From Ignavibacteriae bacterium HGW-Ignavibacteriae-1 (GTDB taxonomy: Bacteria > Bacteroidota > Ignavibacteria > Kapaibacteriales > UBA2268), in contig PGYU01000004.1 in assembly GCA_002839825.1 (NCBI GenBank), positions 62,001 to 126,000 of the forward strand: 64,000 nucleotides of DNA. The letters run 5' to 3'. Positions within the stretch are counted from its first letter, which is position 1. Each line of letters begins with the position of its first letter. A program made the translations under genes and the position numbers. Under the pieces are notes generated by a model. It searched no databases. It saw only the letters and a list, made by a program, of their open reading frames with translations, and was not told the origin of the DNA. This document shows positions 5,551-53,800 of the stretch, piece by piece.

Positions 5551-5583
5551 AAGGGTTGCCCAATCATGGGCAACCCTTTTTTT
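5551..5583 (+). terminator. Rho-independent terminator of the OPT transporter gene
   Basis: A perfect 9-bp stem gggttgccc / gggcaaccc (5553-5561 and 5568-5576) with a 6-nt loop is followed by seven T. It starts 26 bp after the stop codon. A-T pairs can extend the stem. Confidence 0.9.
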
Positions 5584-6360: not shown

Positions 6361-6387
6361 TAGGGACAGAACAGCGTTCTGTCCCTA
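6361..6387. repeat. 27-bp palindromic repeat (TAGGGACAGAAC type)
   Basis: Arms tagggacagaac and gttctgtcccta (12 bp, perfect) flank the trinucleotide agc. The core ggacagaac/gttctgtcc recurs at 53780-53800. No T-run follows, so it is not a plain terminator. Confidence 0.85.
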
Positions 6388-6400
6388 TTATATTTATACC

Positions 6401-6423
6401 CGCTCCCTGAGCCTGTCGAAGGG
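6401..6423. repeat. 23-bp repeat with core ccctgagcctgtcgaaggg, intergenic copy
   Basis: An identical 23-bp sequence occurs at 6773-6795, inside the sorting-domain coding sequence. The ends ccct/aggg can pair. The core resembles a short interspersed sequence (ttcgacaggctcaggg) found in many bacterial genomes (recalled, not searched). Confidence 0.8.
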
Positions 6424-6597: not shown

Positions 6598-6676
6598 AGA
6601 CTTCGGAAGTCTTTATAATTAAATTCAAGAAACTTATTATATTAATATACTTTAGAAAATTAGACTTCCGAAGTCT
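6598..6676. repeat. Pair of inverted 15-bp palindromes downstream of the broken T9SS gene
   Basis: agacttcggaagtct (6598-6612) and its reverse complement agacttccgaagtct (6662-6676) are each 6-3-6 palindromes, separated by 49 AT-rich bp. The unit design is the same as in the 33-bp elements, but with a longer spacer. The second unit ends 7 bp before the sorting-domain stop codon. Confidence 0.75.
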
Positions 6677-6772
6677 TCATTTGTCACATCTTCACAAACA
6701 TCTTCGACCGACTACCAATACGAATGTAATATACTCCACGAGGGAGATGCGAAATATCAATTCTTAAATTAT

Positions 6773-6795
6773 CGCTCCCTGAGCCTGTCGAAGGG
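6773..6795. repeat. 23-bp repeat, copy inside the sorting-domain coding sequence
   Basis: Identical to 6401-6423. On the coding strand it encodes HPSTGSGS and fills the loop before RIDIS (site B of the sorting domain). Confidence 0.85.
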
Positions 6796-6853
6796 TGAGC
6801 GGTCGGGGCGGTCATTACACATTCACCAAGCATATTGAAAATTTTGACATCAG

Positions 6854-6886
6854 AACCTTCCGAAGGTTCGAAACCTTCGGAAGGTT
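6854..6886. repeat. 33-bp double-palindrome element inside coding sequence (15-3-15)
   Basis: aaccttccgaaggtt (6854-6868), spacer cga, then the reverse complement aaccttcggaaggtt (6872-6886). Each arm is a 6-3-6 palindrome. It encodes PSEGFEPSEG in frame, at the loop after EYITI (site A). Nearly the same element lies between genes at 53687-53719. Confidence 0.9.
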
Positions 6887-7037
6887 TCGAAATTGTAATA
6901 TATTCCGATGCGGGATTCGGAAAGAGTTTGTACTGTAGTTCATCAGCAACTTCAATAACGCTTGTGGCAATATCGAATGTAAATTTGTACAATAAATGAC
7001 CTGCCCAAGTATTTCGCAGGAATATTGTATTATTATT

Positions 7038-8156
7038 CTAGTAATAGCCTGCATTTGGAGTTAATTGCATTATACTACTTTCAAATTTAGGAAATTCTAT
7101 CCAATCTTTGCCACCATTGTTTGTTATATATTGACGTCCTCCTGAATAATTCAGCCAAATATTATCGTCATCATAATATATGAATGACGCCAAGTAAATA
7201 CGCTCTGCATCCGATTTTGTGATGAAGCTCCCAATATTAATTTTATTCCATGATATCCAACCATCTTTGGTATTTATTAGAAATAAATCCTGCTTAATAG
7301 TACTATCATTCACCTCAGTTATTTCAAAGAGTGGAATCCATGCAACATTTTTGCTAGTGTGTTTTATAGAGATATTTTTGAAAGGAATTTCGAATGAATT
7401 CCACGTTATACCGGAATTAAGAGTATGATAATTATAAATTATGGAAATTAAACTATCTTCCTGAACTTTTTGATATAGATTAACATTAAAATTATATTCT
7501 TTATCGTTGTAAATTCTTAAATTATATATATATGAGCTATCTTGAATAGTTGGTAATGGTATCTCTTCCCATGAATTGTTTGTTTTCGAAAATTTAAAAA
7601 TACCCTTTCTGGTAGAAGTCTTTTTTCTAAAATCCCAGTTTGTACCGAGAATATATAGATTTCCCGATTCATCGAATTGTGGATAATTAAGCAAAAGTTT
7701 TTCAGGAAAATTGTTTACCTCCCATGTTTCTCCAAAATCATAAGACATCATATACACTCCTGTATCAGCCGGAGGTTGCGGTCCAAAAAGAGCAAGATAC
7801 GGCTGGGTAGTAATGCAAATGAAATCACCGTAACAACTAATTCCTGTTACAGCGGGTGGAGCAATTCCTTTCATTACCCAACGGTCGTATATGTCAATCT
7901 CGCTTATAAATTCCCATGAATCTCCTGCATTTGAAGTCCGGAAAATATAAAATTCATAATCTTGATTTCTAATTAGAGCAACCCCATTTACCGAATCTTT
8001 GAAGGTAATGCCATCGAATGATTTAGCACCGTCAGATATTTGAAAATCCGCTACTTGCTTTATTTCATAATCTACAATTGGGCTGCTGAAAATATTTTGA
8101 ACTGAACCTAAAAGGTTTGCTAAGATGAAAGCGAAAAGAAGTATAAATTTTTTCAT
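7038..8156 (-). CDS. Secreted BNR/sortilin-like beta-propeller protein, T9SS cargo, ended by a premature TAG
   Basis: A 372-residue product with a signal peptide (MKKFILLFAFILANLLGSVQ). It carries propeller-type motifs such as FRTSNAGDSWEF, MSYDFGETWEV and ITNNGGKDWIEF, each an Asp-box-like (N/D)GG.(S/T)W repeat. The frame stays open for 117 more codons after the TAG (7038-7040) and then encodes a T9SS sorting domain, so the natural protein was probably about 490 residues, close to its paralogue at 52145-53554 (469). As it stands the product would be exported to the periplasm but lack the signal for surface secretion. TAG is an ordinary stop in this genome (it ends speA and topA). Repeats flank the gene on both sides. 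Confidence 0.8.
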   Translation of the reverse strand: MKKFILLFAFILANLLGSVQNIFSSPIVDYEIKQVADFQISDGAKSFDGITFKDSVNGVALIRNQDYEFYIFRTSNAGDSWEFISEIDIYDRWVMKGIAPPAVTGISCYGDFICITTQPYLALFGPQPPADTGVYMMSYDFGETWEVNNFPEKLLLNYPQFDESGNLYILGTNWDFRKKTSTRKGIFKFSKTNNSWEEIPLPTIQDSSYIYNLRIYNDKEYNFNVNLYQKVQEDSLISIIYNYHTLNSGITWNSFEIPFKNISIKHTSKNVAWIPLFEITEVNDSTIKQDLFLINTKDGWISWNKINIGSFITKSDAERIYLASFIYYDDDNIWLNYSGGRQYITNNGGKDWIEFPKFESSIMQLTPNAGYY

Positions 8157-33266: not shown

Positions 33267-33307
33267 TAAATAGCCGAAACAAGAGCAATGTAGAATGCTC
33301 TTAAAGG

Positions 33308-33340
33308 TAAAGGGTTGCTTTTGGCAACCCTTTACTTTTT
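33308..33340 (+). terminator. Rho-independent terminator of the sigma/anti-sigma unit
   Basis: A perfect 11-bp stem taaagggttgc / gcaacccttta (33308-33318, 33324-33334) with a 5-nt loop is followed by cttttt. It ends the two-gene unit about 40 bp after the stop. Confidence 0.88.
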
Positions 33341-52144: not shown

Positions 52145-53554
52145 CTACATCTTCACAATCATCTGTGTCCGACTACCAATGCGCACGTAATACACGCCGC
52201 GATGCAAATGCGAAATATCAATGCGTTGCAGATGTCCAACATCTCCAAGATGTTGGACATCTGGCAATTCAATAACACTCTCACCAAGCATATTGTAGAT
52301 TTTGAATTCCTCATTATGAACAAGGGGTTGCAACCCCTTGTTTTCAATATTGATTTCAATATACTCCGTTGCCGGGTTAGGGTGGATGGAGAAACTAATT
52401 TGGGGTAAATTGAAATTATCTTTTACTGAAGTGGACTTTCCAACATATTTTAATATCCTTGGACCGTATCCCAATAATGGAGTAGTTGGTGACATAAATG
52501 TATTAGTAAAACTTGTGCTTCCTACCTGATATTCCCCTTCAAAAGTAAAGTATGGACTTTTTTGCCAGCTTATACCACCGTCAGTTGTTCTTAAATGTGC
52601 TCCACTCGTGTTTACAGCAATGAAATTTAATGAATCTGCAACAGTAAAATTCCCAAATCCGCCCCCTTGTTCAATAATTTCGTAAATCTTATTCCAAGTT
52701 AATCCACCATCAGTCGTTTTATAAAAACTTGTTGAGCTTGTGTCTTTTGTACCTTTAAAAATATCTCCTTTTACAAGTAGTTCGAGATGCCGACTGAATC
52801 CTGTTTTTTCATTTATAAAAGTAAAGAATGAGTAAAAATTATCTTTCTTTGAAATTTTATTAATTTGCGACCAAGTTTTACCCCTATCGTATGATTTAAA
52901 AAAATACATAGACGTATCATTAACTGTATTTACCCAACTACTCATTATTAATATATTTGAATCAATAATGTTGAATGTTGCTCCAGGGTATTTTAGTTGA
53001 GGATTTGTATTAAATTGCATTTTTGACCAATTTTCACCACCGTCTGATGTTATAAAGATATTGTCTAACCCACTGTATTGCAAAATCCCAATTTTACCTT
53101 TCATATACATTCTATTTAACTCAAAATAGAACGGTTCTAAAGTTGTAATTTTTTGAGAATAATCCCAATTTTCACCACCGTCTGATGTACGTAGGACATA
53201 GCCGGAATCGCAGCCTATTACAATCAAATCTTTTTCGGGATAAAACACAAATCTCTTGAGTGGATAGTCAGGGGGTCTTGAATCAATCCGGATATCAAAC
53301 CAAGTATTCCCACCATCGGTAGTTTTTCTAATCCTTGAATATTGCGATGCGGACAAGAAGTCTCCGTAATGCCCAATGCAATTTGAGGAATCATAGCAAC
53401 TAATGTTAAAATAGTATGATGGTGAATTTCCACCTTCTGAATATGACAAAACCGAATCAATTGTTATCCAATCACCTCCATCAGGATTTATGTAGAGTTG
53501 AGCATTAACACCGGTACACATTGCAAATAAAAATATTAAAAACAATCGAATCAT
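52145..53554 (-). CDS. Secreted BNR/sortilin-like propeller protein with repeat-bearing T9SS sorting domain
   Basis: A 469-residue protein with a signal peptide (MIRLFLIFLFAMCTGVNA). At least six Asp-box/BNR motifs are visible: TTDGGNTWFDI, TSDGGENWDYS, TSDGGENWSKM, SYDRGKTWSQI, TTDGGLTWNKI and TTDGGISWQKS. These suggest a beta-propeller like sortilin or Ycf48. The sorting domain (about residues 390-469) has HPNPATEYIEI, FKIYNMLGESV and RIDISHLHRGVYYVRIGSR. Two inserted stretches are encoded by palindromic DNA: NKGLQPL (405-412) and DVQHLGDVGHL (about 431-442). It is the paralogue of the broken gene at 6684-8156. Confidence 0.88.
   Translation of the reverse strand: MIRLFLIFLFAMCTGVNAQLYINPDGGDWITIDSVLSYSEGGNSPSYYFNISCYDSSNCIGHYGDFLSASQYSRIRKTTDGGNTWFDIRIDSRPPDYPLKRFVFYPEKDLIVIGCDSGYVLRTSDGGENWDYSQKITTLEPFYFELNRMYMKGKIGILQYSGLDNIFITSDGGENWSKMQFNTNPQLKYPGATFNIIDSNILIMSSWVNTVNDTSMYFFKSYDRGKTWSQINKISKKDNFYSFFTFINEKTGFSRHLELLVKGDIFKGTKDTSSTSFYKTTDGGLTWNKIYEIIEQGGGFGNFTVADSLNFIAVNTSGAHLRTTDGGISWQKSPYFTFEGEYQVGSTSFTNTFMSPTTPLLGYGPRILKYVGKSTSVKDNFNLPQISFSIHPNPATEYIEINIENKGLQPLVHNEEFKIYNMLGESVIELPDVQHLGDVGHLQRIDISHLHRGVYYVRIGSRTQMIVKM
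52230..52262. repeat. 33-bp double-palindrome element inside coding sequence (15-3-15)
   Basis: agatgtccaacatct (52230-52244), cca, then the exact reverse complement agatgttggacatct (52248-52262). Each arm is a 6-3-6 palindrome. In frame it encodes DVQHLGDVGHL at site B of the sorting domain. Same geometry as 6854-6886 but unrelated sequence. Confidence 0.9.
52319..52342. repeat. 24-bp perfect palindrome inside coding sequence
   Basis: aacaaggggttg and caaccccttgtt meet without a spacer (52319-52342). It encodes NKGLQPLV at site A of the sorting domain, the position of the 33-bp element in the paralogue. Confidence 0.88.
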
Positions 53555-53677: not shown

Positions 53678-53735
53678 ACGAGACGAAACCTTCCGAAGGT
53701 TTCGAACCTTCGGAAGGTTAAGAATGTGTCTCGTC
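53678..53735. repeat. 33-bp double-palindrome element, intergenic copy with outer inverted repeat
   Basis: aaccttccgaaggtt (53687-53701), tcg, aaccttcggaaggtt (53705-53719). Both arms equal those at 6854-6886; the spacer is tcg instead of cga. An outer pair gacgagac (53678-53685) and gtctcgtc (53728-53735) encloses it. The 53555-53911 gap has no convincing gene. Confidence 0.88.
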
Positions 53736-53779: not shown

Positions 53780-53800
53780 GGACAGAACGCTGTTCTGTCC
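53780..53800. repeat. Palindrome ggacagaac-gct-gttctgtcc
   Basis: Arms of 9 bp are identical to the inner arms at 6361-6387, with the trinucleotide inverted (gct for agc). On the right side the match continues through ccta. Confidence 0.8.

Follow-up and report, generated by a model that had tools for sequence, protein, structure and literature searches.

Palindromic repeats that reside in frame within genes have been described in different systems. Intragenic REPs of the GTAG- and CGTC-tagged classes are palindromes of 20–40 bp, which are mostly intergenic and in some cases located in frame within genes, where they were suggested by the authors to act as flexible linkers or loops, and in recB, two Xanthomonas species have distinct REPs at approximately the same position (PMC3733652). 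Rickettsia palindromic elements (RPEs) sit in unrelated genes and are in some cases much longer (PMC3733652 and general knowledge), and PARCEL elements are palindromic coding repeats of surface proteins, which are shuffled within genomes and encode tandem 25-residue domains (PMC2996958). The cassettes described here resemble intragenic REPs in being palindromes of 20–40 bp with dispersed copies, some of which are in frame, and they resemble RPEs in being palindromic DNA that is held in frame inside genes. However, whereas intragenic REPs are found at various sites of many unrelated genes, the cassettes occupy two fixed loops in dozens of paralogs, where they occur in combinations and differ between orthologs. 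Unlike RPEs, with their distribution over many unrelated genes, the cassettes span 23–36 bp and are concentrated in one domain, and in contrast to the tandem domains of PARCEL, they are single units in the loops of an existing fold. The host of every cassette is the C-terminal sorting domain of the Por secretion system (TIGR04183/PF18962), of which other subfamilies in the same genome have ordinary loops.

While REPs and RPEs have been described as in-frame insertions, there appears to be no account of a single domain family that carries exchangeable cassettes at fixed loops. The use of the two loops as landing sites had been presumed to be undescribed in a first interpretation of the DNA from its letters alone (the sequence-only reading), and our search for literature on T9SS sorting domains in connection with palindromes or gene conversion returned no report of the pattern in a body of work covering few subscription journals. 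Here, mobile-type palindromic DNA serves as interchangeable in-frame sequence at set positions of a domain throughout a family, with a turnover that is visible between close species, which opens direct tests of the spread of intragenic repeats, of ectopic recombination triggered by palindromes in bacterial genes and of the tolerance of T9SS loops.

Two cargo genes and their loop cassettes

The window, which comprises the whole analysed stretch of 64,000 nucleotides (C43:62001-126000 of the 3.23 Mb genome G000, assembled in 43 contigs), contains two cargo genes with cassettes in both loops of the sorting domain, and additional elements in their vicinity:

7041..8156, minus strand: cargo part of the first gene, 372 aa, from the ORF list and its translation, closed by an in-frame TAG at 7038-7040
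6684..7037, minus strand: 117-aa frame following the TAG, with sorting domain (PF18962, E 2.9e-13) and stop codon at 6684-6686
6854..6886, minus strand: cassette A1 in loop A of the first gene, double palindrome 15-3-15, peptide KPSEGFEPSEG
6773..6795, minus strand: cassette B3 in loop B of the first gene, imperfect palindromic repeat, peptide PSTGSGS
52145..53554, minus strand: second cargo gene, 469 aa, with Sortilin/BNR repeats (PF15902, E 4.7e-14) and sorting domain (PF18962, E 3e-10)
52319..52342, minus strand: cassette A4 in loop A of the second gene, perfect 24-bp palindrome, peptide NKGLQPLV
52230..52262, minus strand: cassette B2 in loop B of the second gene, double palindrome 15-3-15, peptide DVQHLGDVGHL
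53687..53719, plus strand: intergenic copy of A1, upstream of the second gene
6401..6423 (= C43:68401-68423), minus strand: intergenic copy of B3, downstream of the first gene
6600..6674, unstranded: palindromic element downstream of the first gene, arms ACTTCGGAAGTCT and AGACTTCCGAAGT separated by 49 nt, missing in the ortholog L168

The four loop elements are located where the sequence-only reading had placed them and are translated in frame in both genes, each of which contains a sorting domain detected by Pfam. On its coding strand, A1 reads AACCTTCCGAAGGTT-TCG-AACCTTCGGAAGGTT, with arms of 15 and a spacer of 3 nucleotides, and the other three elements correspond to CCCTTCGACAGGCTCAGGGAGCG (B3), AACAAGGGGTTGCAACCCCTTGTT (A4) and AGATGTCCAACATCT-TGG-AGATGTTGGACATCT (B2). 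Two details of that reading have to be revised. The region 6684-8156, which it treated as a single gene, is split by the TAG into cargo ORF and domain frame, and the equal lengths of 13 and 15 residues assigned to loops A and B become 14/15 and 17/16 residues in the two genes if counted between its own anchors. The TAG between cargo and sorting domain might reflect a recent nonsense mutation or an error of the assembly; the ortholog L168 from the same-genus genome G002, with 92% identity to the cargo across all 372 aa, is open at this position and encodes 494 aa.

In an AlphaFold2 model of the second domain, obtained from six sequences with a mean pLDDT of 79.8, both cassettes reside in low-confidence loops connecting strands 14–21 with 33–36 and 42–46 with 57–62. 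The top fold match of this model is the T9SS substrate complex 8glk_D (E 2.9e-3), in agreement with the TIGR04183/PF18962 match at the C terminus, and in the solved lipase domain 7pzj, which was identified as a sequence match, both corresponding loops are shorter. Further intergenic palindromes of other families are found in the window at 5551-5578, 6361-6387, 33307-33335 and 53780-53800 (AAGGGTTGCCC.., TAGGGACAGAAC.., GGACAGAACGCTG..), indicating that the genome carries many REP-like families.

Distribution and combination of cassettes

A census of the window's genome, based on 730 kb of DNA around sorting domains and repeat copies, returned at least 150 TIGR04183 matches, all above cut-off, a lower bound since 150 of the 216 first-look candidates were scored. 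Thirty of the 150 retrieved domains contain a palindromic repeat of about 23–36 bp in loop A, loop B or both. A subfamily profile defines about 35–40 close members, including fragments, and about 35 exported proteins of the bacterium and its relatives have a common C-terminal export tag whose two loops are encoded by palindromic DNA. Ordinary loops in most domains had been named as an observation that would reduce the pattern to coincidence. Most domains do have such loops, as about 120 of the 150 are devoid of cassettes, but these belong to other subfamilies, whereas the pattern is nearly universal in the affected one. Perfect hairpins (arm of at least 10, spacer of at most 6 nucleotides) occur 43 times inside sorting domains, all starting at model position 12–16 or 39–44, whereas 100 codon shuffles of the 150 domains yield 0.58 on average and at most 3. 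Chance palindromes are ruled out by codon and base shuffles. Outside sorting domains, no palindrome of a repeat family was found convincingly within a long ORF in the 730 kb of this genome, the matches falling mostly into short or spurious frames and in one case on the edge of a frame of 564 aa. Hairpins in other frames include one in a further subfamily domain (C12:124445) and several A+T-rich singletons.

The cassettes group into at least eight families (A1–A4, B1–B4), which are found in many combinations:

A1, loop A: AACCTTCCGAAGGTTTCGAACCTTCGGAAGGTT
A2, loop A: ATCAACCCTACGGTTAACCGTAGGGTTGAT
A3, loop A: AAACTTCGGAAGTTTTGGAAACTTCCGAAGTTT
A4, loop A: AACAAGGGGTTGCAACCCCTTGTT
A5, additional type, loop A: contains CCCCCTCTAATAAGAGGGGG
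B1, loop B: TGTAGAGACACGGCATGCCGTGTCTCTACA
B2, loop B: AGATGTCCAACATCTTGGAGATGTTGGACATCT
B3, loop B: CCCTTCGACAGGCTCAGGGAGCG
B4, loop B: ATTCATCCGATGACTCCCAGTCATCGGATGAAT

Within each family, every copy is read in the same phase. In the window's genome, A types are confined to loop A and B types to loop B; in G011, an A3-like element occupies both loops of one gene. Across three species, A1 is paired with B1, B2, B3 and B4, and A2 likewise with all four. A1 is found in loop A of about ten domains of the genome and in intergenic copies, A4 also in C26:14094, B2 in identical form in loop B of other domains, and B3 in other loop Bs and between genes. Copies of A1, A3, B2, B3 and B4 are also located outside intact genes, some within orphan domain fragments. 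Size, palindromy and dispersed copies are as in REPs, whereas the location varies, with numerous intergenic copies of A1 and B4 and nearly all copies of A2 and B1 inside sorting domains. A GTAG tag at one end is present in B1 (TGTAGAGAC...) and absent from the sequences listed here for A1, A2, A3, A4, B2, B3 and B4. Cassette type shows no association with either middle segment or tail sequence, which counts against the proposed exchange and implies that its tracts are short or old, and the first strand is the sole part of the domain that is associated with the loop A type.

Cassettes were detected in 26 of 60 related genomes, mostly of the same family, with the caveat that all compared genomes may be metagenome assemblies. 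Placement in the same loops is found in both same-genus genomes (G001, G002) and in G034, G020, G021, G011, G015 and G033. Among 123 parsed domains of relatives, 93 loop As and 55 loop Bs reach a hairpin score of 9 or more, compared to 0.5 (A) and 0.2 (B) for base-shuffled loops, as do four tails and none of the first strands or middle segments. Loop lengths in these domains, as set by the anchors used for parsing, range from 8 to 28 residues in A and from 9 to 22 in B. The proposed occurrence of palindromic repeats in two fixed loops hence extends to about 30 paralogs in the genome and to its relatives. Their exclusive use of these loops does not hold, since the palindromes of the four tails are located in a third loop in another genus (G034), and A1 is found twice in frame, as NLPKVSNLRKV and in a phase unlike that of sorting domains, in an unrelated 805-aa ORF of G015 (L152, 2220-4634), for which a Pfam search identified no family. 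Two records labelled Desulfobulbaceae (L151, L155; JAGXRP010000053, JAGXRP010000008) apparently belong to genome G001, which represents the window's genus and encodes a T9SS, and the label looks wrong.

Turnover between orthologs and orphan gene ends

Ortholog pairs between species were defined as reciprocal best matches of the cargo, resulting in 33 comparisons, some with common members, of which 22 differ in the loop A cassette and 18 in the loop B cassette. One pair with 99% identical cargo DNA combines A1/B4 with A1/B1, and the gene at C38:6232 carries A5/B3, A5/B6 and A2/B3 in three species, with a nearly unchanged sequence between the loops and conserved inner flanks. The first window gene (A1/B3) and its G002 ortholog (A2/B3) are about 97% identical in the aligned stretch of the cargo, as judged by eye, and the downstream region is alignable, with an extra palindromic element following the stop codon of the window gene. 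In several orthologs, the replacement, as seen against the cargo, also includes domain sequence beyond the loops. As control, 18 clean ortholog pairs of other sorting-domain subfamilies are collinear with 0 gap columns, and their domain identity equals the cargo identity within a few percent; a nineteenth pair was left out as a doubtful match.

In variants of the same cassette class, dyad symmetry is kept, as illustrated by A2 in G034 (ATCAACCATAGGGTTAACCCTATGGTTGAT) and B1 in G001 (TGTAGAGACAATTCATGAATTGTCTCTACA), while the encoded peptide changes between INPTVNRRVD and INHRVNPMVD or between VETRHAVSL and VETIHELSL. Covariation scores of 0.274 for the B1 class and 0.114 for the A2 class exceed all 500 shuffles and all slid controls. 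Palindromy thus appears to be preserved by paired base changes despite a change in the peptide, a finding that is supportive and not decisive because the shuffles leave relatedness in and the choice of rows by class pattern leans towards symmetry.

Pieces of the 3' end of the domain were found behind other genes in the window's genome, G001, G002 and G021. The pieces inspected run to the stop codon and start in A1 (C38:46872, G001 C6), in one half of A3 (C7:3863), in B1 (G001 C8), in B3 (G001 C43, C77) or in B4 (G001 C21, G002 C7), and C28:46051 begins earlier, just 5' of the first strand. The palindromes thus coincide with rearrangement ends in many cases. Pieces adjoining a terminator that is common to G001 and G002 differ in their cassette. 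In silent-cassette variation systems, an expressed gene is rewritten from donor copies that are not expressed, and the orphan 3' fragments are at most putative donors of this type. G021 (L269-L276) contains many intergenic 3' domain fragments, several of which are followed by the same terminator CCACTAC..GTAGTGG.

Probable origin and reassortment of the cassettes

The cassettes are probably REP-like elements in permissive loops of one T9SS subfamily, which were spread and reassorted by recombination among paralogous gene ends. REP-like palindromes would have entered two exposed loops between strands, which accommodate additional residues as long as the reading frame is maintained, with the first insertion presumably catalyzed by a RAYT-type or other transposase. 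Reassortment might then have proceeded mainly via gene conversion and crossovers among about 35 near-identical gene ends, where homology or break points could be offered by the palindromes and by the conserved stretch separating the two loops. The outcome would be a repertoire in which loop A and loop B cassettes are combined and turn over faster than the cargo, the cassettes themselves being perhaps near-neutral for the protein. Copying and exchange between paralogous gene ends are indicated by the fixed phase, the combinatorial pairing of A and B types, the domain-wide divergence of orthologs and the replacement of cassettes. The description of both loops as fixed landing sites is thus correct with respect to their occupancy and too simple in its mechanism, since such copying and exchange would be superimposed on any first insertion. 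In a more modular scenario, the palindromes would serve as joints at which 3' ends, including silent orphans, recombine at loop A or B, with cargo genes continually gaining new tag ends, a proposal that we regard as rather doubtful.

Recombination between paralogs would be dispensable if every cassette went back to its own transposition event, in which a REP-like element landed in frame in the same loop, with selection purging other phases and positions. The existence of intergenic copies, the RAYT-type genes of relatives, some with other palindromes on both flanks, the different frame of A1 in the unrelated ORF of G015 and the swaps of single loops with conserved flanks in the C38:6232 orthologs and the C40:93434 pair are all compatible with independent insertion. 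It nevertheless appears unlikely as sole process, given that each family has one phase in all copies despite A1 being open in other phases, which are used elsewhere, that sequence outside the loops was also replaced in several orthologs and that old occupants were swapped rather than accumulated.

Possible roles of the RNA or the protein explain less than REP-like insertion combined with recombination. A pair of stable stems close to the 3' end of each transcript might tune its decay or translation and be kept by selection, and the predicted RNA hairpins are indeed strong (z −3.9 and −5.7), with paired changes preserving pairing. We still consider such a function improbable, as palindromes are decayed or missing in several members (C12:21326, C11:315, C43:148006 and L225 of G002), about 120 other sorting-domain genes manage without stems, and the turnover of REP subfamilies also predicts paired changes. 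Selection for peptides that alter T9SS recognition, attachment or surface properties would explain why the exposed loops of exported proteins vary in a combinatorial manner, but is very improbable, since DNA symmetry is held while the peptide varies and the C-terminal sorting domain is generally cleaved off after export by the T9SS, so that the loops would not remain long at the surface.

A point against the insertion of REP-like elements that we favor is that the window's genome yielded no REPtron, a RAYT gene with its cognate repeat on the flanks, since its single and divergent Y1_Tnp gene has none of these palindromes beside it. Pairs of B4 were considered as REPtron and rejected, since they are too far from RAYT-type genes (about 1 kb in G017 and 1.7–1.9 kb in G021). 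RAYT-type or Y1_Tnp genes are present in 8 of 10 relatives, in some cases next to palindromes of other types (CCCACG.. or AACGGGCTTCAGCCCGTT), and those of G002 (L288), G021 (L289) and G005 (L292) have palindromes on both sides (CCCACGAATTTATTCGTGGG; AACGGGCTTCAGCCCGTT). One RAYT-flanking palindrome, CCCACGGTT..AACCGTGGG, has an arm in common with A2-type cassettes.
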